Shown piece after piece: positions 16,329 to 49,084 of a DNA stretch of 64,000 nt. The DNA is taken from the NCBI RefSeq assembly GCF_037963835.1, contig NZ_CP150145.1:7316001-7380000 (forward strand), given 5' to 3'. The notes under the pieces are model-generated. The model made no database searches. It was not told the DNA's origin and saw only the letters and a program-made list of their open reading frames with translations. Source of the stretch: Paenibacillus sp. FSL H8-0332 (GTDB lineage: Bacteria > Bacillota > Bacilli > Paenibacillales > Paenibacillaceae). Each line of letters begins with the position of its first letter. Positions within the stretch are counted from its first letter, which is position 1. The translations under genes and the position numbers were made by a program.

Positions 16329-16382
16329 CGGGTTTACAAGAATTACCCACACAGTTAAAATGTATTTAATTAGATAAGATAC

Positions 16383-16472
16383 CCACTAGGGGAGTCTGAA
16401 TAGGCTGAGACGGGAAAATTGAATTTCCGGACCCTTGAACCTGATCTGGATCATACCAGCGTAGGAAAGTGG
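16383..16472 (+). ncRNA. TPP riboswitch
   Basis: The leader contains the conserved THI-box elements: GGGGAGTCTGAATAGGCTGAGA, split around the CTGAGA core, then GACCCTTGAACCTGATCTGG and TACCAGCGTAGGAAAGTGG. The outer CCACT and AGTGG ends pair as P1. It binds thiamine pyrophosphate and controls the downstream thiC through the terminator at 16521-16548. Confidence 0.95.
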
Positions 16473-16520
16473 AGTCGGACCTTTTTTGAATACAGTCTTA
16501 TTTGGCTGTTCCTTTAATAA

Positions 16521-40307: not shown

Positions 40308-40787
40308 ATGGGTAAAAAAGCAGACGGGAAAGTGCTCGCCCAGAACAAAAAAGCTTCCCATGACTATTTTATTGAGGACACCTACGAAGCTGGTTTGGTT
40401 CTTACAGGTACAGAGATCAAATCGCTGCGTAATGGCCGCGCCAACATAGGGGATGCGTTCGCTACGATCCGTAATGGTGAGATTCATATCCACAACATGC
40501 ATATCAGTCCTTTTGAACAGGGAAACCGCGCCAATCCTACCGACCCTACGCGTACACGTAAGCTGCTTATGCATAAGGAGCAGATACACAAGCTGCTGGG
40601 CTCATCCAAACGGGATGGCTTCACCATTGTGCCGCTTAAGATATATGTGCGTAATGGCTATGCCAAGCTGCTGATTGGTCTGGGTAAAGGTAAGAAGGAA
40701 TACGACAAACGGGATTCCGCCGCGAAGCGAGACGCTCAGCGTGATATCCAGCGTGTGTTGCGCGACAAACAGAAGGTGGCCAGATAG
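40308..40787 (+). CDS. smpB: SsrA-binding protein SmpB
   Basis: SmpB binds tmRNA and brings it to stalled ribosomes. The 159-residue beta-barrel protein has [50 protein letters not shown] and a basic C-terminal tail [23 protein letters not shown] before the ATG at 40308 decides against the in-frame GTG at 40299. The tmRNA gene lies 200 bases downstream. Confidence 0.97.
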
Positions 40788-40989: not shown

Positions 40990-41350
40990 GGGGCCGTTCT
41001 TGGATTCGACGGGGATAGTTCGAGCATGAGTAGCGAGTAGTGGGGACGCGTCCGCTTCATCAACGCTAAAGCCTATTAAACGGCAAACAACAAAACAACT
41101 ACGCTTTCGCAGCCTAAGAAACTGTGTGCGTGCTTCTACTCTGCATCGTCCATGTGACAGGGCTAGGGGCTAACAAATAGTGGAATACGCTGTCTCATCT
41201 CCGCCTGGGGTGAGCTGAAGAAGATAATCAGGCTGACCCGAAGGGGACCCGGTTACGGGGGCTTCTAGGGTGACATCAAAACTGTAACTACACTCGTAGA
41301 AGCTTATGTGCCGTTATCTTCGGACAGGGGTTCGACTCCCCTCGGCTCCA
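40990..41350 (+). ncRNA. ssrA: tmRNA (10Sa RNA)
   Basis: The tRNA-like ends GGGGCCG and CGGCTCC pair with one G-U, followed by a discriminator A. The CCA is not encoded. The T arm GGGGTTCGACTCCCC is perfect. The tag frame runs from GGC at 41082 to TAA at 41115-41117 and encodes GKQQNNYAFAA, ending in the Ala-Ala degron. The gene follows smpB. Its 3' 200 bases are repeated downstream at 43464-43664. Confidence 0.96.
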
Positions 41351-41367
41351 TATGGAGTATCAGTGAA

Positions 41368-41392
41368 AGACACCTTAAGGGGTGTCTTTTTT
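41368..41392 (+). terminator. ssrA terminator
   Basis: AGACACC and GGTGTCT pair and are followed by six T. The hairpin recurs at 43680-43706 and 45192-45218. Confidence 0.88.
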
Positions 41393-41772
41393 CATTTCAG
41401 AGGCTGTTTGGACTATATGTGGTGGTTAAAAAGCTTGCTATGCCACTGTTTCTGGGGCTTGCTGTTAATGGGTACAGTGAGTTTCACTGAGGCTATACGG
41501 AGACAGGAGGTTTTGGCCGCCACGTAACCAGTGATAAAAAAACCCTTCGGTGTGTGTTTTCGCCTTCCATACCCATCATCCGCACCTCGATTCTTTAATA
41601 CTACTTCTCAAAGTACCTCTCTAAAGCCTCCAAAGCTTCTCTGTTATTCAATTACTCTAATTTGCACATATCTGTACCTAAAATATTTCAAACGACAACC
41701 TGAGTCAATCTGAGCGCTTTTACGTATCTTTGCAAGGTTCAGAACCCTTGAAAAATGATATAATAATAATGA
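41393..41772. other. Non-coding start of the ssrA-linked accessory region
   Basis: No gene is recognised. Short open frames here have no ribosome sites and no recognisable domains. An inverted repeat CAAGGTTCAGAACCCTTG at 41735-41752 is followed by the AT-rich TATAATAATAATG before the Rpn-like fragment. Confidence 0.5.
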
Positions 41773-42012
41773 ATGGAACTGATACCGATGGATTTGCTGG
41801 ACCTGCGTGTGGATTTTGTATTTAAACGGATATTTGGCGGCGAGAACAATAAGGATGTGCTGCTGGCGTTTTTTAACCGAATTTTCACCGAAGCTGGCGA
41901 GCCGCGGCTGACTGAGATCATCCTGATGAACCCTTATACGGATAAAGACGATCCGCTCGACAAACAATCCATTTTTGATGTGTTTATGCCAAGACCTCTG
42001 GAGGTAATTTGA
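41773..42012 (+). pseudogene. Rpn-family nuclease/transposase, N-terminal fragment
   Basis: The 79-residue fragment DLLDLRVDFVFKRIFGGENNKDVLLAFFNRIF and LMNPYTDKDDPLDKQSIFDV is the N-terminal start of Rpn (PD-(D/E)XK family transposase) proteins. After SIFDV, where the family continues into its nuclease core, the similarity stops and the frame closes within eleven residues. The family's C-terminal part is found at 43070. The middle of about 100 residues, including the catalytic core, is missing. The minus-strand P-loop gene at 42047-42898 sits in the gap. Confidence 0.8.
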
Positions 42013-42046
42013 TTGATATAGAGATGTACGAGTGTAGTTAGGTCAA

Positions 42047-42898
42047 TCATAGCTTGCTGTATATGTATTCATTTTCTTCATCATAATCCATACGGTCCAC
42101 ATAAATTTTTTCTTTATTTGACAGTAACTTTCCGAAACATTTTTCTTCTATTGATGTTCTTTTTTCAAAATAGATCATAAGATCCTCTCGACCAGATACC
42201 TGATGTATCCTTCCGTATACCGAATTCTTTAAATATTCCACCATCCAGTCAATCCAGTCAGGATATAATTCATTATTGTCGGACACTCGCTCTAATGCTA
42301 CTTTGTTGATTTGTTCTTTTAGGTCATCGGGATATAGGTAGAAAATCAATGGATTAAGGGGCCTCAATATCTGCTCAACCTCTAAAATATAATCCATCAT
42401 TTGTTGTTCATCGCAATCCATTGTTCGCATAAGTTCATTTAAGATTTGCTGGAAAATAACGTTTTCGAACACATATACTTGATCAGAAGTAAGGGCTTGT
42501 TCAACAAATGCGGTTATTCTACTTATTAATGCCAGCATAAAACGGTCGGTCTCTAAATTTCCATTATCGGCTACATACTGCCCCAATAGAGCTTTAATTA
42601 TCGGAAATTCTTTGACATCAGGAAGAAAAATGCAATACCAACCATTATAGATTTTTACTTTATTTCTAAGTACTTCTTCATAAATAGAATAATTCTGTAT
42701 AACAGCTTCGAATTCTTTCTCTGTCATTACTGCGGTCATTCTTACGTCACAGGGGTTCTCAATAGTGGAGTCCATATGATATTCGAAAAAAACCACAGCG
42801 TTTATATTATTCATATTCAAGTTGTTGTATAGATTCCATGCACATGCTGATTTTCCGCTACCATGAATTCCTTCAAAGTTGATAAATCTTGTATTCAT
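42047..42898 (-). CDS. P-loop NTPase, kinase-like, unknown function
   Basis: GGGGTG six bases before the ATG at 42896-42898 sets the start, giving 283 residues. The Walker A motif FEGIHGSGKSACAWNL is at residues 6-21, in a setting like thymidylate or deoxynucleoside kinases. The rest does not match a family I can name. The gene is clearly AT-richer than the core genome and lies inside the broken Rpn-like gene, which points to acquisition. A phosphotransferase or phage-defence nucleotide kinase role would be guesswork. Confidence 0.6.
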   Translation of the reverse strand: MNTRFINFEGIHGSGKSACAWNLYNNLNMNNINAVVFFEYHMDSTIENPCDVRMTAVMTEKEFEAVIQNYSIYEEVLRNKVKIYNGWYCIFLPDVKEFPIIKALLGQYVADNGNLETDRFMLALISRITAFVEQALTSDQVYVFENVIFQQILNELMRTMDCDEQQMMDYILEVEQILRPLNPLIFYLYPDDLKEQINKVALERVSDNNELYPDWIDWMVEYLKNSVYGRIHQVSGREDLMIYFEKRTSIEEKCFGKLLSNKEKIYVDRMDYDEENEYIYSKL

Positions 42899-43069
42899 GT
42901 TAACACCCCATTCCAATTTTGTGTTTTTCGAAGCGAGCTGCATATCAATTTAATTTATCTATCCGAAAATAAGTGCAACGGTCTAAAATTTTGCCGGCTG
43001 CTTATAATTATATATTTTGGAAGATTGTGGTGCAAGGGGAAGAAAAACTGATAGTTATTCATTCCCTAG

Positions 43070-43441
43070 GTGCATTACCTGGAGTTGCCGATGCTAGAAC
43101 GTAGTATTCCGTCTGAAGGCGGACTGATCAATTGGTTACTGTTTCTGAAGGGTGCTGATACATCACAATGGGAGGTGCTGAAGATGAATGAGCCAGGATT
43201 GGAAAAGGCCATGGATACTCTGCAATATCTAAGTCAGGATTCGGATGCTAGACGGTTGTATGAGGCCAGACAGAAGTATTTGCATGATGAGGCTTCTATG
43301 CTGGGAAGTGCAGAAATGGCGGGTATAAAAAAAGGTAAAATAGAAGTTGCCCAGAATTTGTTGGCTATGGGAATGGATCATGCTGCTGTCGCTAAAGCAA
43401 CTGGTCTAAGTGAGGATGAAGTTCGGTCTATAAGGTTTTAA
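43070..43441 (+). pseudogene. Rpn-family nuclease/transposase, C-terminal fragment
   Basis: The frame has the Rpn C-terminal pattern: LELPMLE, WLLFLKGAD, EVLKMNEPGLEKAMDTLQYLSQDSDARRLYEARQKYLHDEASML, then the tail IEVAQNLLAMGMDHAAVAKATGLSEDEVRSI. A stop codon lies just upstream at 43067-43069, and the catalytic middle is missing, so this is the other half of the relic at 41773-42012. Confidence 0.8.
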
Positions 43442-43463
43442 TATCCCTATTCTTTCAGCTGAT

Positions 43464-43664
43464 CATGTGACAGGGCTAGGAGCTAACAAATAGTGGAATA
43501 CGCTGTCTCATCTCCGCCTGGGGTGAGCTGAAGAAGATAATCAGGCTGACCCGAAGGGGACCCGGTTACGGGGGGCTTCTAGGGTGACATCAAAACTGTA
43601 ACTACACTCGTAGAAGCTTATGTGCCGTTATCTTCGGACAGGGGTTCGACTCCCCTCGACTCCA
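43464..43664 (+). repeat. Second copy of the ssrA 3' end
   Basis: The 201 bases match 41151-41350 of ssrA with three differences: G to A in GGGCTAGGAGC, one extra G in the ACGGGGGGC run, and G to A in CTCGACTCCA. It lacks the ssrA 5' end and tag frame, so it cannot form tmRNA. It is followed by the same CTCCATATGGAG palindrome and terminator. Confidence 0.95.
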
Positions 43665-43679
43665 TATGGAGTAAAGTAG

Positions 43680-43706
43680 AAGACACCTTTAGGGGTGTCT
43701 TTTTTC
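43680..43706 (+). terminator. Terminator copy downstream of ssrA repeat 2
   Basis: AAGACACC-TTTA-GGGGTGTCTT with a T run, nearly identical to the ssrA terminator. Confidence 0.85.
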
Positions 43707-44120
43707 ACTTCTGTGGCTGTTTATAATTATCGTTTTCAGTCAGCCCAAATGTGGGGTTACACAGGTATCCACTATTACTTTTACTTAAAAAGACTTATTC
43801 CAACAGTAACTCTTTAACCCTGAATATGCTGAGCTTTGTCCAGACTTGCTCCAATATGCAGAAAGTACCTTTGCTGGTACAGATGAGAACGGGAATACGT
43901 ATTTAAACAGTGCCTTGCTTATTTTTCCGATGTCCCCGTCTTTAAAAGTTCGAAAAGTTATCCCCATGAGTATTCTCCTTGTTAGATATAATTAAGTTGT
44001 TATATATATTCAATTTTATATTTTGGGTGTCCGTAGTGCGAGAGAAAGAATGAATAATATCCTTTTTTTAGGTTCTCCCCTCACTAACAAGTTATTAACC
44101 CAACTATACCAAATATCCCT
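43707..44120. other. Decayed region between ssrA repeats 2 and 3
   Basis: The only candidate gene is a 60-codon minus-strand frame, 43785-43967, beginning MGITFRTFKDGDIGKISKAL behind AAGGAG. Its second half matches nothing I know. The plus strand over 43815-43930 also reads protein-like (NPEYAELCPDLLQYAESTF) without a start. It is probably a gene relic. Confidence 0.45.
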
Positions 44121-44151
44121 TTACGGGGGGCTTCTAGGTGACATCAAAACT
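44121..44151 (+). repeat. Third ssrA copy, left fragment
   Basis: TTACGGGGGGCTTCTAGG followed by TGACATCAAAACT matches the ssrA stretch starting near 41254 with one G missing. Similarity ends sharply at 44151, and the ssrA 3' core resumes 1 kb later at 45168. Confidence 0.85.
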
Positions 44152-44310
44152 TGATTTTTAGATGGAACTAAACTAACTGGCAGTTATCTATAACACGATT
44201 GATTCATTCGGGGGATTGCGGGAATTTCAAAAGTGGAATATTATTATTTATGATTAATGTATTGGCTTACTAATTAATGTTTATATTAATTTAATTGGAG
44301 TGGATGTATT

Positions 44311-45096
44311 ATGTATCCCCATCATCAAGCTGCCATTGATGCCATCACCAACAAGCTTAAAGCCAGACCCGACGTACAAGGGATCATCATCGGGGGTTCC
44401 GTGGCGCATGGCTTTGCCAACGAAACCTCTGATATCGACATTATGATCGTCCTTTCTGAAGAGGATTACAAGAAAGCTTGTTCCATCCATAATCTTGGGT
44501 ATTTCGAAACGGAATCTTGTTCTTATGAAGGCGGTTACGTGGACGGGAAAGTTGTATCCGCTTCCTACATCAAGCAAGTGGCCGAATCCGGCAGCGATCC
44601 TGCTAAGTTCGCATTCCAGGATGCGTTCGTCACCTATTCCAATATTGAGGGGTTGGAACAGTTGGTCCAAGACGCTCCCCGATATCCGGTGGAGAAAAAG
44701 GCAGAGAACATGCAGAAGTTCTATGCACAATTCGAAACCTGGAAATGGTATTATTACGAAGGACTGAAACGCAACAATCGTTTATTAATCGACTACTGTT
44801 TGACCCACTATGCCTTTTTCGCAGGTAGGTTGATTTTGGTACACAACGAAACGCTGTTCCCTTCTTATAAGTGGTTCTTAAAGGTTCTGGAAGGGGCCCA
44901 AAAGAAGCCGGAGAATTTGTTGGCGGACATCCATCGGGTACTGGAAGAACGAACGCCGGAAGCCGTCGAGAATCTGTACGAGAGTATTGTGGAATTTAAT
45001 AACTGGTATCAGGCAGAGCATCATTGGACGGTTCAGTTCATGATGGATAGCCAGCTGAACTGGATGGACGGACCGGTTCCGGTTCTCGATTTATAA
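44311..45096 (+). CDS. Nucleotidyltransferase-fold protein
   Basis: The 261-residue product has the pol-beta superfamily motif IIIGGSVAHGFANETSDIDIMIVL, with the two metal Asp of SDID near residue 47. A helical C-terminal half follows with ETWKWYYYEGLKRNNRLLIDYCL. Related proteins include aminoglycoside or lincosamide nucleotidyltransferases and many uncharacterised ones, so antibiotic modification is only one option. GGAGTGG lies before the ATG. The gene is bracketed by the two pieces of the third ssrA repeat and is richer in GC than the AT-rich sequence just before it. Confidence 0.75.
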   Translation: MYPHHQAAIDAITNKLKARPDVQGIIIGGSVAHGFANETSDIDIMIVLSEEDYKKACSIHNLGYFETESCSYEGGYVDGKVVSASYIKQVAESGSDPAKFAFQDAFVTYSNIEGLEQLVQDAPRYPVEKKAENMQKFYAQFETWKWYYYEGLKRNNRLLIDYCLTHYAFFAGRLILVHNETLFPSYKWFLKVLEGAQKKPENLLADIHRVLEERTPEAVENLYESIVEFNNWYQAEHHWTVQFMMDSQLNWMDGPVPVLDL

Positions 45097-45167
45097 ACTG
45101 TTCCGCCACCTCACCAAAAATCCTGATCATCATGCCGCGGCGAATTGTGGATCTGCCAAGCCATGGT

Positions 45168-45185
45168 TCGGCTCCATATGGAGTA
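45168..45185 (+). repeat. Third ssrA copy, 3' core
   Basis: TCGGCTCCATATGGAGTA is identical to the ssrA 3' end and its flank near 41342-41359. The terminator repeat follows at once. Confidence 0.85.
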
Positions 45186-45191
45186 CAAGCA

Positions 45192-45218
45192 GAAGACACC
45201 TTATCGGGTGTCTTTTTT
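45192..45218. terminator. Terminator copy downstream of ssrA repeat 3
   Basis: AGACACC-TTATC-GGGTGTCTTTTTT. The last codons and stop of the minus-strand SDR-hydrolase gene fall inside this hairpin. Confidence 0.8.
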
Positions 45219-47072
45219 CATTTCTGTGGATGTATTACCTAGTACATAAGAAGCCGTTTCCCGTGGATGGTTAAGAGGAAAATGATGACCATAGGGAACA
45301 ACATCAATCTTACCAAGCTGTACTGGAGCAGAATAGCGCCGATCTTGATCGCCCCAAATAATATGAAGATTAGACCCCGGTACTTTGGTGAAATCCCCCT
45401 GATAATTTTTCGACAGGAAACGGTTGAGCTGAAGAGTTGTATTTACAATTCTAGGCGAAGTGAAGCTACTGCGTACTTTGGCAATATAATGTTTCGGAAT
45501 GCTCTCTGTGGTTTCAAACAGACCATGACCAATTAAATAACGTTCTAATGAATTAGCCGTTGCTAATTTCAATGCCCACTTGTTCAACAATTGAGGAGCA
45601 TTGAACGATTTGGAATTTTTTTTGGCAACAGGTGGCTGAAGTAAAGTAATAGTATTCTTCGTATCTAGGTACTCTCGCGCTAACGCTTCCAGCAGAATAA
45701 CCGCTCCGAAGGAATGGCCAATCCAATGTGCGCCATGAGCAGCTTTTCCTGATAACTCCTTAACTACATTCAAATAGAGATCTATAAGATTTATCTCATG
45801 CTTAAAAGGGGAACGTCCTAAACCCGGGAGATCCGGAATCCATACAGGTTGACCCGTTTGTTCATGAAGCTCTAGCCCTAAAGGAAATAAATCCTCTCCA
45901 TCACTCAACAAACCATGGAATAAAATAAATGGCCGACCCTCTCCTTGTATTTGATGAATCACAGTGTTTCCGGTTAATGTTCGTTCATATGCATGATTAT
46001 GCTGGTCATTTGGGTACATCAAGCGATAATCCAAATCTGCGACTACGGCCGGGAAAAAATTCATAACACTCGTCTTAGTAAACCAATCTGCTCCCATGAC
46101 TTTTTTCGGTAAATCATTTGAAAACTTTCGATTTGTAATAAAGTTCAGTCCATCCGATGGAATTTGTGTGATTTTACTGAGCCCGCTGTTCATAAGTGCC
46201 TTCATGAAGCGAAGGGGCACAGAGATTGTAGGTGCGGCCATATTCATACTTTCTGACATCACGCCTAATAATTCAGATATATCCGGGTCCAGCGGTTGAT
46301 CTGGAACAAGTGTATAGGTTTGAATAGACGATGGCACCAGCTTAACAACCTGAACAATAAACTTCGCCAGCGCATCGTTTGAAATAAGCGGTAATTTATA
46401 CCCTTTGCCTCCAGGAATAACTGGCATCAGCCCTCTTCGCATACTCTCCACAAGCAAGCCTAAGCCGGCTACTTGCTCCGTACTCCCTGTTGTACTGCTG
46501 CCGACTACAGTTGGTGGATTAATCACAGACAGCGGATAGCCTACTGAGGATGCCTGCTGGCGAATATACAGATCTGCTAGAAATTTTGTTCTTTCATACG
46601 GATTTTTTATTTTCAAATAGTCGTGCCCTTCTTGGAACACATCAATCGCAACCTTGCTATTACTATCATCAAAAGGGGTCATATATCCAACTACATGAAT
46701 AAACTGCTGCAAACCCTTCAATTGATGAATACGTTTAGCGAATTCACTGATATGCTTGGCACCGTTTAAAAATACAGAGGTTGCCTCTTGCGTTGTCGCT
46801 TGAATATCCATTTGTCCGCCTGCGTGAATAATAACATCTGTGTTCAATACCTTATCCTTATCTTCATCGCTTAAACCTAAATCTGTTTTGGTCAAATCAC
46901 CTTCAATAAAGTGCATGGCTACCTCGTTTAAAAACCCTTTTTTCTGAAAAACACGTGTTGCTTTACTTTTCGACCTCACTAAAAGAAAAATCATAACATC
47001 TTCTTTAAGAAGCTCCTCTACAAGTTGCCTCCCGATAAAACCTGTTCCGCCTGTCAAAAATATGGTTCTCAT
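45201..47072 (-). CDS. Fusion of NAD(P)-dependent SDR (fatty acyl reductase-like) and alpha/beta hydrolase
   Basis: The 623-residue protein has an N-terminal extended SDR domain (about 1-350) with FLTGGTGFIGRQLVEEL, a DVIIHAGG strand and the catalytic NPYERTK. A C-terminal alpha/beta hydrolase (about 375-610) shows the nucleophile motif WIGHSFGAVILLEALA near residue 451, PFILFHGLLSDG and the catalytic His in YGHHFPLNHP. The pairing suggests reduction and hydrolysis of related acyl esters or thioesters, which is inference. The stop codon and the last residues KKDTR lie within the ssrA-type terminator, so the gene's 3' end was shaped by the repeat. An AGGAGC site precedes the ATG, and a TetR operator lies just upstream. 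Confidence 0.85.
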   Translation of the reverse strand: MRTIFLTGGTGFIGRQLVEELLKEDVMIFLLVRSKSKATRVFQKKGFLNEVAMHFIEGDLTKTDLGLSDEDKDKVLNTDVIIHAGGQMDIQATTQEATSVFLNGAKHISEFAKRIHQLKGLQQFIHVVGYMTPFDDSNSKVAIDVFQEGHDYLKIKNPYERTKFLADLYIRQQASSVGYPLSVINPPTVVGSSTTGSTEQVAGLGLLVESMRRGLMPVIPGGKGYKLPLISNDALAKFIVQVVKLVPSSIQTYTLVPDQPLDPDISELLGVMSESMNMAAPTISVPLRFMKALMNSGLSKITQIPSDGLNFITNRKFSNDLPKKVMGADWFTKTSVMNFFPAVVADLDYRLMYPNDQHNHAYERTLTGNTVIHQIQGEGRPFILFHGLLSDGEDLFPLGLELHEQTGQPVWIPDLPGLGRSPFKHEINLIDLYLNVVKELSGKAAHGAHWIGHSFGAVILLEALAREYLDTKNTITLLQPPVAKKNSKSFNAPQLLNKWALKLATANSLERYLIGHGLFETTESIPKHYIAKVRSSFTSPRIVNTTLQLNRFLSKNYQGDFTKVPGSNLHIIWGDQDRRYSAPVQLGKIDVVPYGHHFPLNHPRETASYVLGNTSTEMKKDTR

Positions 47073-47090
47073 ATCATCCGCGCTCCTTTT

Positions 47091-47110
47091 TTAGTACTGA
47101 TTGGTACTAA
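47091..47110. promoter_or_regulatory. TetR-type operator 1
   Basis: TTAGTACTGATTGGTACTAA has perfect TTAGTAC/GTACTAA arms and lies just before the SDR-hydrolase start. A near copy lies before the tetR gene at 47722-47741. Confidence 0.75.
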
Positions 47111-47134
47111 TTTTGTGTAAAAAAAATGCTTCGC

Positions 47135-47719
47135 TTATCGAAGCAAGTTGAAAAAGTGGCTGGCTGTTCTCGTGATCACCGTTGCATCCTTCAATGTCTC
47201 TGAAAGAAACAGCGCTCCTTCAAGATTCGTTATAAAAAGTGCTGCTACCTCGTCTATATGAATCGTTTCTCTAAACTCGCCTTTTTCTGCTCCTTGTTGT
47301 AGCAATAGAGAGATTTTCGTTTGTAATCCTGTGAAAAAGAGACCTATTTTTTCCTTGATGTGCGTAGCTTGTGCAGGACTTTGAATATAAAGAGTAATAA
47401 ATGGACAGCTCCCCTTATACTCTCTTGACTGAACTCCCTCCGATAATTGCTTTAAAAACATCTGGACACGATCTTCAACAGATAACTGGTTCTGAGAAAG
47501 GATTTGATCTATTGCCCGCTCATACGTTTCAATCCAATAATCAACGACTCCTGCTAACAATTCTTCCTTATCAGTGAAGTGATAATACACATTAGATTTG
47601 GATACTTTGCTTACACGTACTAATTCATCCATACTTGTATAAGCAAATCCCTTTTCTAAAAATAAGGCTGCCGCTACTTCAATCACACGTTTTTGATTCA
47701 ATACTTTTACCTTTGTCAT
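47135..47719 (-). CDS. TetR family transcriptional regulator
   Basis: The 194-residue protein has the TetR helix-turn-helix at residues 10-55: EVAAALFLEKGFAYTSMDELVRVSKVSKSNVYYHFTDKEELL. The remainder is a helical ligand-binding domain similar to the AcrR/YxaF type. It lies upstream of the SDR-hydrolase gene on the same strand, and matching palindromes precede both genes. It therefore probably represses itself and the fusion gene until a small hydrophobic ligand binds. Confidence 0.9.
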   Translation of the reverse strand: MTKVKVLNQKRVIEVAAALFLEKGFAYTSMDELVRVSKVSKSNVYYHFTDKEELLAGVVDYWIETYERAIDQILSQNQLSVEDRVQMFLKQLSEGVQSREYKGSCPFITLYIQSPAQATHIKEKIGLFFTGLQTKISLLLQQGAEKGEFRETIHIDEVAALFITNLEGALFLSETLKDATVITRTASHFFNLLR

Positions 47720-47721
47720 GA

Positions 47722-47741
47722 CTAGAACTATACAGTACTAA
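47722..47741. promoter_or_regulatory. TetR-type operator 2
   Basis: Read on the minus strand, TTAGTACTGTATAGTTCTAG matches operator 1 at 14 of 20 positions, including the shared TTAGTACTG. It lies immediately before the tetR start. Confidence 0.7.
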
Positions 47742-47830
47742 ATTATGTGTTGCAAGTATTTTTATTTTTGCATAGCACCTAACAATCCTCTATAATTGTA
47801 GGCTACTATGCACCCAGTCAGGAGGAAATG

Positions 47831-49084
47831 ATGAACTTTATACAAGAACACCTTGCAGGATATGGCGTGAGCGAGCAGATGGTTGTTTATCTCTCGAACA
47901 TCATTATGGTTTTATGTATTGCTTTACTCTCTATAGTGGCTAATCTTGTTGCCAAAAAAATCGTACTGAAGATCATCATCCATATCATTAATAACAACCG
48001 GTATACGTGGGATAATTTCTTTTTGGAGAAAAAAGTGTTTCACAAGCTGTCGCATCTCGCTCCGGCCTTTATCATCTATTACGCTGCACCAATTTTTCCG
48101 CTGTATCAGTCTTTCATTGTAAAGTTCGCCTTAGCTTATATGATTATTGTAACGATCACGGTGTTTAATGCCCTGCTTGATGCCATCGATGCTATTTATC
48201 GTACGTATGAGGTGTCCAAGTTGAGGCCGATCAGGGGCTACATTCAGGTTGCGAAGATTATACTGTATATTATTGGTGCGATTGTGGTGATTTCTAACCT
48301 TATGGGTCAGAATCCGCTGATTCTGCTTAGTGGACTGGGCGCGTTATCCGCTGTTCTTATGTTAGTGTTCAAAGATTCGATATTGGGCCTCGTGGCAGGT
48401 ATTCAATTATCTTCTAACGATATGGTTCGTGTAGGCGACTGGATTGAAATGCCTAAATATAATGCCGACGGTAATGTAATTGACATTACGCTGAATACGG
48501 TAAAGGTGATGAATTTCGATAAAACCATTACTATGATTCCGAGCTATGCCCTGATCTCAGACTCTTTTAAAAATTGGCGGGGGATGGAGGCCTCCGGGGG
48601 CAGAAGGATTAAACGTAGTGTCTGTATTGATACAAGCAGCATATGTTTTTGTACCAAAGAAATGATTGAGGAGTTCCAAAAGGTTCACTATCTTAGCGAT
48701 TATGTCCTGACAAGATTAGATGAAATTAACACCTATAATATCGAACATCATATCAATAGGGAGAGCAAAGTGAACGGGCGACAACTAACGAATATCGGGG
48801 TGTTCCGGGAATATGTCCAAGAATATCTTCGCAATCATCCCAAAATTCATAAGGATATGACGCTCATTGTCAGGCAGTTAGCACCAGGAGACAGCGGACT
48901 GCCTTTAGAAATTTATGCGTTCAGCAATGAGACTACCTGGGGTGTGTATGAGTCCGTCCAGTCGGATATCTTTGATCACATTTTTGCGATTATCCCTCTG
49001 TTTGGACTTCGCGTTTTCCAGAACCCTACGGGCCAGGATATTGTTAATTTAAAAGAGAGAAAAGAGTATTCGGCGGGATATTGA
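47831..49084 (+). CDS. MscS-family mechanosensitive channel, YbdG-like
   Basis: The 417-residue protein has an N-terminal membrane region of five or so helices, the MscS pore helix LSGLGALSAVLMLVFKDSILGLVAGIQL around residues 165-195, and the beta domain NDMVRVGDWIEMPKYNADGNVIDITLNTVKVMNFDKTITMIPSYALI. These channels open under membrane tension to release solutes. The extended cytoplasmic end, with QLAPGDSGLPLEIYAF, resembles the YbdG branch. AGGAGG lies before the start; an ATG one codon earlier is possible. Confidence 0.9.
   Translation: MNFIQEHLAGYGVSEQMVVYLSNIIMVLCIALLSIVANLVAKKIVLKIIIHIINNNRYTWDNFFLEKKVFHKLSHLAPAFIIYYAAPIFPLYQSFIVKFALAYMIIVTITVFNALLDAIDAIYRTYEVSKLRPIRGYIQVAKIILYIIGAIVVISNLMGQNPLILLSGLGALSAVLMLVFKDSILGLVAGIQLSSNDMVRVGDWIEMPKYNADGNVIDITLNTVKVMNFDKTITMIPSYALISDSFKNWRGMEASGGRRIKRSVCIDTSSICFCTKEMIEEFQKVHYLSDYVLTRLDEINTYNIEHHINRESKVNGRQLTNIGVFREYVQEYLRNHPKIHKDMTLIVRQLAPGDSGLPLEIYAFSNETTWGVYESVQSDIFDHIFAIIPLFGLRVFQNPTGQDIVNLKERKEYSAGY

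Follow-up and report, generated by a model that had tools for sequence, protein, structure and literature searches.

Downstream of ssrA, the gene for transfer-messenger RNA (tmRNA), the chromosome of Paenibacillus sp. FSL H8-0332 carries repeated pieces of the 3' end of this gene, and we consider it probable that a tandem array of genomic islands, inserted at the ssrA 3' end and since eroded, makes up this interval. The window is the whole stretch of 64,000 nucleotides (nt) that was analysed (contig NZ_CP150145.1, positions 7,316,001 to 7,380,000), and positions below are those of the window; G and L numbers are our handles for genomes and loci. The evidence consists of the repeats in the window, the empty sites in two relatives, the scars at element ends, and the serine recombinase genes found at ssrA in relatives.

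In the mechanism that we propose, recombination between the attachment site of an element (attP) and the ssrA end would take place at a TC core (...CCCC-TC-GGCTCCA). The left end of the element would bring GGCTCCA and a terminator, so that ssrA would keep working, and the right end would remain as an attR scar next to the earlier ssrA tail. With each new insertion, older units would be shifted further from ssrA. The enzymes are predicted to be CcrB-like large serine recombinases, whose genes converge on ssrA and run into it.

ssrA and its repeated ends in the window

The following features lie at and behind ssrA.

40308..40787, plus strand: smpB, a frame of 159 amino acids and the 5' neighbour of ssrA (used as a query, it was found upstream of ssrA in 71 genomes)
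40990..41353, plus strand: complete ssrA (ARAGORN; Rfam, 176.5 bits)
41346..41398, plus strand: palindrome CTCCATATGGAG (41346-41357) and the ssrA terminator, copy 1
41410..43722, no strand: inserted unit 1 (Rpn gene and its ssrA copy), edges approximate (joined-flank comparison; blastn map)
43462..43711, plus strand: ssrA copy 2, genus-profile positions 160-410, terminator included (nhmmer, 262 bits)
44113..44151, plus strand: ssrA shard, profile positions 256-295 (15 bits; upstream flank as in G049 and G066)
45119..45179, plus strand: attR-type arm, an element half-site that continues as the TC core and GGCTCCATAT (arm profile, 58.5 bits, E 2e-17)
45168..45224, plus strand: ssrA tail, copy 3, then the shared distal block (16 bits)

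The first-pass annotation of this DNA had described three ssrA 3' ends, each with a palindrome and terminator. The 64 kb do hold three exact matches to CTCCATATGGAG and no more (41346, 43660 and 45172), where fewer than 0.01 would be expected by chance at equal base frequencies; counting the shard, the ssrA pieces number four. The copies are also less alike than had been described. Copy 2 is far longer, with about 205 nt of the ssrA gene and the terminator; it matches copy 1 at 99% in two ungapped blocks and the Rfam tmRNA model with 52.4 bits. Copy 3 holds only the last 13 nt or so of the gene with the terminator, and is preceded by an arm that is not ssrA. By its sequence, copy 3 appears to close the conserved arm at 45119-45179 as an attR-type scar, different in kind from copy 2. 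The left and right ends in relatives place the putative integration site in the ssrA end at ...CCCCTC/GGCTCCA.

Empty sites in relatives

A further feature is needed here.

45201..49084, no strand: low-GC block common to relatives (family matches; GC 38-41%), with an NAD-binding/alpha-beta hydrolase gene (minus), a TetR gene (minus) and an MscS-like channel gene (plus)

When ssrA (40990-41353) was joined to 43668-43793, the joined sequence was contiguous in G049 (98.0% of 492 columns) and in G083 (97.6% of 492 columns), and the unjoined control, the window's own continuation past copy 1, reached 68.1%. Therefore, about 41410-43722 either came in by insertion or dropped out cleanly from both relatives. 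From 45201 on, the block comes after an ssrA tail in G084, G086, G066 and G049, and in G052 it begins about 0.46 kb after ssrA, with no ssrA copy detected in that gap. These positions indicate that the stretch from ssrA to 45.2 kb is additional. Beyond the MscS gene or block, ssrA pieces also turned up in G082, in G058 and, with a weak 12 bits, in G083, so that the array of this clade probably extended to 49.1 kb at one time. The insertion into the tmRNA 3' end that the first-pass annotation had proposed is thus supported by a single uninterrupted ssrA end in G049 and G083 and by the survey below; its figure of two successive insertions is a minimum and not a count.

Fragments of ssrA across the genus

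Sequence of the ssrA 3' end was matched in all 100 Paenibacillus genomes searched. The ssrA region was taken from 77 of them, and fragments of at least 15 bits were counted in the 73 with at least 7 kb of locus. A further ssrA fragment was present in 65 of the 73 genomes, at least two in 43 and at least three in 21, fractions that may be biased upward by the selection of the 77, for which strong or multiple matches were taken first. With 87 kb covered upstream of ssrA and 1.32 Mb downstream, 145 fragments lay downstream on the same strand, 3 were on the opposite strand and none was upstream. None of the 145 same-strand fragments has the 5' end; 101 extend to the 3' end and 17 stop before position 345. 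Fifty-eight begin at positions 260-300, with various flanks and several in a run of G, which would make this stretch a recurrent point of breakage or crossover, although part of the cluster may be where alignments break off. Neither fragment nor arm was found in five of the 73 genomes (G043, G054, G071, G073 and G085), three of which (G054, G071 and G085) carry a recombinase behind ssrA.

These counts bear on the idea that ssrA was duplicated in tandem and then decayed, with cargo arriving later. Full tmRNA pairs about 120 nt apart do exist in other genera of the order (G135:C4:21127-21977, G167:C1:3874959-3875810 and G146:C14:22765-23605). However, none of the 145 genus fragments keeps a 5' end, and G049 and G083 have a single copy exactly at the insertion point; we regard this origin as highly improbable. 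In another genus of the order, G122:C22:76214-96030 holds two complete tmRNA matches 19 kb apart.

Arm-type scars, left ends and the rebuilt attP

The arm, roughly CGGCGAATTGTGG-N10-CCACGGTTCG(G/C)CTCCAT, is conserved behind differing genes, among them zeta-toxin-like, aspartyl protease and nucleotidyltransferase genes. The pattern was present in 49 of the 100 genomes, with about 80 matches listed where the reversed pattern had 3; the arm profile gave 96 rows at E 0.01 in 99 sequences, some of them one site read on both strands. Arm-type scars have only about 10 nt of the gene in common with ssrA, next to the conserved non-ssrA arm. On the other side, the sequence after the CCA of ssrA differs between genomes. 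In G085, G054 and G068 the left end has AAATCCACAA, which mirrors TTGTGGATTT of the arm, and in G066 and G047 it has AAAACCCTG; in each of these genomes a serine recombinase gene lies directly behind ssrA. The rebuilt attP contains inverted repeats symmetric about TC, at 14/16 in G047 and 13/16 in G066, each above all 200 shuffles, and these two genomes make candidate attP/attB pairs available. One viral sequence, a 39-kb IMG/VR contig, matched one of two attP-type patterns; it carries the G066 recombinase at 100% at its end and is cut within ssrA.

The outer stem of the arms at loci L039-L170 covaries, GGCG standing with C opposite and GCCG with G (11/3/0/9 among 29 readable arms; Fisher p 0.0003, kinship not corrected), and tends to match the acceptor type of the host's ssrA. 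Arms were also seen where no full ssrA was found, at L153 (G068), L154 (G060), L161 (G036) and L164 (G078); among the matches listed, ARAGORN gave no tRNA or tmRNA at these four loci, and at the G068 locus one tiny frame resembles the ssrA end by eye. Arms away from ssrA are possibly old arrays displaced by rearrangement.

An arm shared by unrelated genes recalls integron cassettes, and the units could be single genes with an arm of 60-80 nt that use ssrA as a platform, with the recombinase acting in trans. The occurrence of one arm behind differing cargo genes and the recurrence of units at differing array positions are in keeping with this. Conversely, the arm looks like the P half-site of an attR, and some genomes with a recombinase at ssrA carry its mirror image as the left end, and we judge such cassettes quite unlikely. 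A wider proposal is that ssrA serves the genus as a natural cassette platform for integron-like trading of small one- or two-gene units, with an essential RNA gene as its base. The units would end in a shared serine-recombinase half-site or in a stretch of ssrA carried along from an earlier host, and CcrB-like recombinases together with RecA would take them in trans from species to species; this would work without an integron integrase, for which no directed search was made, and we consider it unlikely.

Serine recombinases at ssrA in relatives and beyond the genus

In seven relatives, a gene for a CcrB-like large serine recombinase lies directly behind ssrA and convergent with it. The frame is open in G066, G047, G085, G074 and G071; the match is full-length in G054 and partial in G068. 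The G085 protein has Resolvase, Recombinase and zinc-ribbon domains. CcrB was the best NCBIfam match, at 132 and 192 bits for the two ssrA-side proteins tested and at 106-192 bits over all four proteins of relatives, where the cut-off is 900. Five aligned recombinases end in GAEG(S/I)RTPVRR, which is antisense ssrA, and annotators should be warned that such C-termini (GAEGSRTPVRR or alike) in five proteins are read from the RNA gene. The sole sizeable recombinase similarity in this region of the window is likewise 11 residues read from antisense ssrA.

That no integrase is left had been claimed for this region, and in this genome, indeed, neither the Phage_integrase family (E 1e-6) nor the Recombinase family (E 1e-4) had a match near ssrA. 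The integrase search that had been recommended in relatives yielded serine recombinases and not tyrosine integrases at the ssrA site: no Phage_integrase match was listed near ssrA in the 10 genomes searched, the window's included, and serine recombinases were near ssrA in 6 of these. Ordinary tmRNA islands of tyrosine integrases, with the integrases lost, are the usual rule for islands at tRNA and tmRNA genes in the available text of PMC4383910, but the content of these 10 genomes makes them a very unlikely source of this array.

Adjacent pairs of serine recombinases occur in G008, G093 and G030. The pairs and related copies or remnants are mostly in units that end in long ssrA pieces, and for this reason a second recombinase type may be involved. 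The early genes of the G066 element encode the integrase, a regulator, a Sak4-like annealing protein, a helicase, a methyltransferase and a primase, and no clear structural gene was present among ten proteins tested; judged from these early genes, the element looks like a prophage. For the G085 element, Pfam assigned an AAA ATPase and other domains among nine further proteins, and no phage family.

For the search beyond the genus, the recombinase alignment was run against genome contigs. At least 513 relatives were confirmed, and the best 80 were taken, which represent 79 loci. Among these best loci, a tmRNA gene lies within 250 nt of the recombinase 3' end in 19 and a tRNA gene in 10, and all 29 cases are convergent. 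Of the named loci, those of Paenibacillus were the closest. The tmRNA-adjacent cases include Paenibacillus, Ruminiclostridium, Alicyclobacillus and uncultured Clostridia; the tRNA genes (among loci L172-L250) are those for Ala, Pro, Leu, Ser, Gly and Lys. These neighbourhoods suggest that serine recombinases land at tRNA 3' ends too.

Long ssrA pieces, the Rpn unit and the points that weigh against site-specific insertion

The long ssrA pieces start at various positions from 52 on and extend up to about 360 nt, with junctions that are specific to the unit, several of them common to different species. Some of these pieces are foreign to their host. The G008 fragment (m52-410) matches the ssrA type of G084/G086 at 100% and its own at 94.1%. 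The corresponding values for other type and own are 98.7/92.1% in G030 and 98.4/91.1% in G077, and, for shorter fragments, 100 versus 94.7% in G080 (76 nt) and 100 versus 92.3% in G058 (91 nt). The host's own ssrA was the best match for 26 of 88 fragments. In 31 of 37 long fragments copy 1, and not the fragment, was nearer to the ssrA of the closest five relatives, with one tie and five going the opposite way, G008 among them; since pseudogene decay lowers the fragments too, this count alone is no proof of foreign origin. Together, the foreign gene parts and this count suggest that the crossover lies near the 3' end and that the element carries the ssrA piece along. A displaced host original was rejected as the general source of fragments, copy 1 being nearer the relatives in 31 of 37. 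A crossover at the start of the copy 2 fragment is disfavoured; the G000 ssrA copy 1 matches its own clade throughout the gene part, one G excepted.

Several observations weigh against site-specific insertion by the CcrB-like enzymes. The fragment starts are scattered, with 58 of 145 at 260-300, and one crossover site does not explain them. G071 and G074 have a recombinase at ssrA but other left ends, and G013, G016 and G003 have a AAATCCACAAC-like left end at which no recombinase was found. The attP symmetry is weak in G068 (p 0.02) and G085 (p 0.095) and was not detected in G054 (p 0.54), G074 (p 0.88) or G071 (p 0.98); the far ends in these five may lie outside the stretch compared. G028, where no recombinase was seen, reached p 0.005 among the 74 genomes tested, and therefore single symmetry scores need care. 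The other attP-type pattern had no match in viral contigs. At fifty of the best 79 loci neither a tmRNA nor a tRNA gene lies within 250 nt, and 8 of these fifty are near a contig edge. The window itself holds no recombinase, so the enzyme behind either of its scars is deduced from relatives.

A further difficulty comes from the Rpn unit. This unit occurs with an identical junction in G000, G076 and G091, with cargo 93.7-95.7% alike, where smpB in the same comparison is 86.0-88.3% alike. Despite the like cargo, the ssrA fragments of the unit are only 87.4-91.4% alike, and each is near the ssrA of its own host (98.0, 97.4 and 94.0%). Copy 2 thus does not fit a simple site-specific model. The simplest rescue would be homologous exchange or gene conversion after arrival, by which the long ssrA piece behind the Rpn gene probably turned host-like.

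Homologous recombination could also have built much of the array by itself. Circles or linear DNA with an ssrA 3' part and cargo would enter by a RecA crossover in ssrA, and no integrase would be needed. The long fragments offer hundreds of bases of homology for this, and the Rpn unit and many other mapped units show no recombinase frame. The Rpn unit, with its junction in three species and both ssrA copies host-like, calls for homologous exchange or conversion. Against this, some fragments are foreign through the gene part (G008, G080 and G058), and arm-type scars offer only the 10 nt or so of ssrA gene beside their non-ssrA arm. We give such a contribution somewhat less than an even chance. 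It is compatible with the island array proposed here, and the two compete over recombinase-free units with long pieces, such as the Rpn unit.

Cargo, composition and decay in the window

The cargo of the window comprises the following features.

41773..42012, plus strand: broken Rpn-family PD-(D/E)XK nuclease gene, N-terminal piece (PF12784, E 3e-15, profile 2-60 of 229)
42027..43067, minus strand: insert replacing about 216 nt of the Rpn gene (edges by blastn to the intact Rpn gene of G076)
42047-42943: P-loop gene in the insert (PRK06761 family, below cut-off)
43070..43441, plus strand: Rpn gene, C-terminal piece (PF12784, E 4e-12, profile 147-228)
44311..45096, plus strand: nucleotidyltransferase-domain gene (PF01909/PF18765)

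The Rpn relic, P-loop gene and nucleotidyltransferase gene named in the first-pass annotation are all present, with the correction that an insert disrupted the Rpn gene and that the P-loop gene of this insert is found at another place in the G049 array. The PD-(D/E)XK domain is split and incomplete, profile positions 61-146 being in neither piece, and the TIGR01784 match to the N-terminal piece is below cut-off. In G049 the P-loop gene (90.9%) sits between the TetR and MscS genes, which indicates that this gene has moved. At the edge of the insert, 14 nt (42027-42040) spotted by eye equal ssrA read backwards, as if the P-loop gene had formerly ended in an ssrA piece. The nucleotidyltransferase gene is also in the arrays of G049, G083, G082 and G066.

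In the genus, units recur at differing array positions. Rpn cargo amounts to 21 frames in 16 genomes, and other cargo includes zeta-toxin-like, TOTE primase-helicase, Fic/Doc, aspartyl protease and HNH genes, as well as a reverse transcriptase-protease of the PADLOC set; on the cargo of the window PADLOC gave weak matches only.

The pieces between the ssrA copies have 34-47% GC and the flanks 51-52%, in line with the earlier remark on deviating composition. Low GC (38-41%) continues to 49.1 kb, and the end that had been set at 45218 is therefore too short. The region is decayed, and its recombinase has been lost. Elsewhere in the window, a thiamine pyrophosphate (TPP) riboswitch lies at 16378-16484 (75.5 bits).

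Comparison with known systems

Staphylococcal cassette chromosome (SCC) elements carry ccr genes and have their attB in rlmH. The ssrA-side recombinases resemble them in that CcrB is the best named relative, and the adjacent pairs in G008, G093 and G030 recall ccrA/ccrB, but the four proteins of relatives that were scored are far below the CcrB cut-off and the site is ssrA. At fda in Streptococcus, cis-mobilisable elements and integrative and conjugative elements (CIME/ICE) accrete, decayed and intact elements standing in tandem at one site; a tyrosine integrase and another target gene are used there.

As far as the available text of the Islander account goes (PMC4383910), it covers tyrosine integrases only and says that no serine recombinase is known to target such genes. 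The islands it describes share with ours the restoration of the target gene by the element, the displaced fragment that marks the far end and the equal orientation, and differ in the enzymes, which at ssrA are serine recombinases here. Prophages in the tmRNA gene are listed among tyrosine-integrase sites in the accessible part of PMC8092301; no such integrase was listed near ssrA in the 10 genomes searched, the window's included.

In the literature covered, mostly titles and abstract openings with subscription papers outside its scope, no account of such arrays in Paenibacillus was found, and McMurdie 2011 (PMC3146451) was the one paper recognised in which serine recombinases and tandem islands are brought together with ssrA. 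The closest known system is that of the Dehalococcoides ssrA genomic islands (ssrA-GIs) described there. In the part of that paper available, tandem ssrA-GIs are associated with the CcrB-like recombinase DsiB, whose gene overlaps attL with its 3' end and may extend into ssrA; 15 of 31 islands are without the DsiA, parB, mom-like integration module and are read as possible cis-mobilisable units gained by accretion; and a 20-bp repeat is given for one island, with insertion placed in the T-loop. Here too, insertion is at the ssrA 3' end with an ssrA repeat at the far end, and tandem accretion and recombinase-less units are seen (43 of 73 genomes with at least two extra fragments); the CcrB-like recombinase at ssrA is present in relatives and absent from the window. 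The differences are that the scars here are an arm of about 60 nt, with a putative core after the T-stem, or ssrA pieces up to about 360 nt, that these pieces can be foreign, that host phylum and cargo differ, and that at least one element reads as a prophage.

The comparison suggests that serine recombinases, besides tyrosine integrases, use tmRNA and tRNA 3' ends beyond Dehalococcoides, and the arrays of the genus preserve, like fossils, a history of insertion at a single essential gene, with cargo types that recur. The interval behind ssrA is best read as an array of a known kind that has decayed and lost its recombinase, here in a different group of hosts, and the long, partly foreign ssrA pieces are its unusual part.

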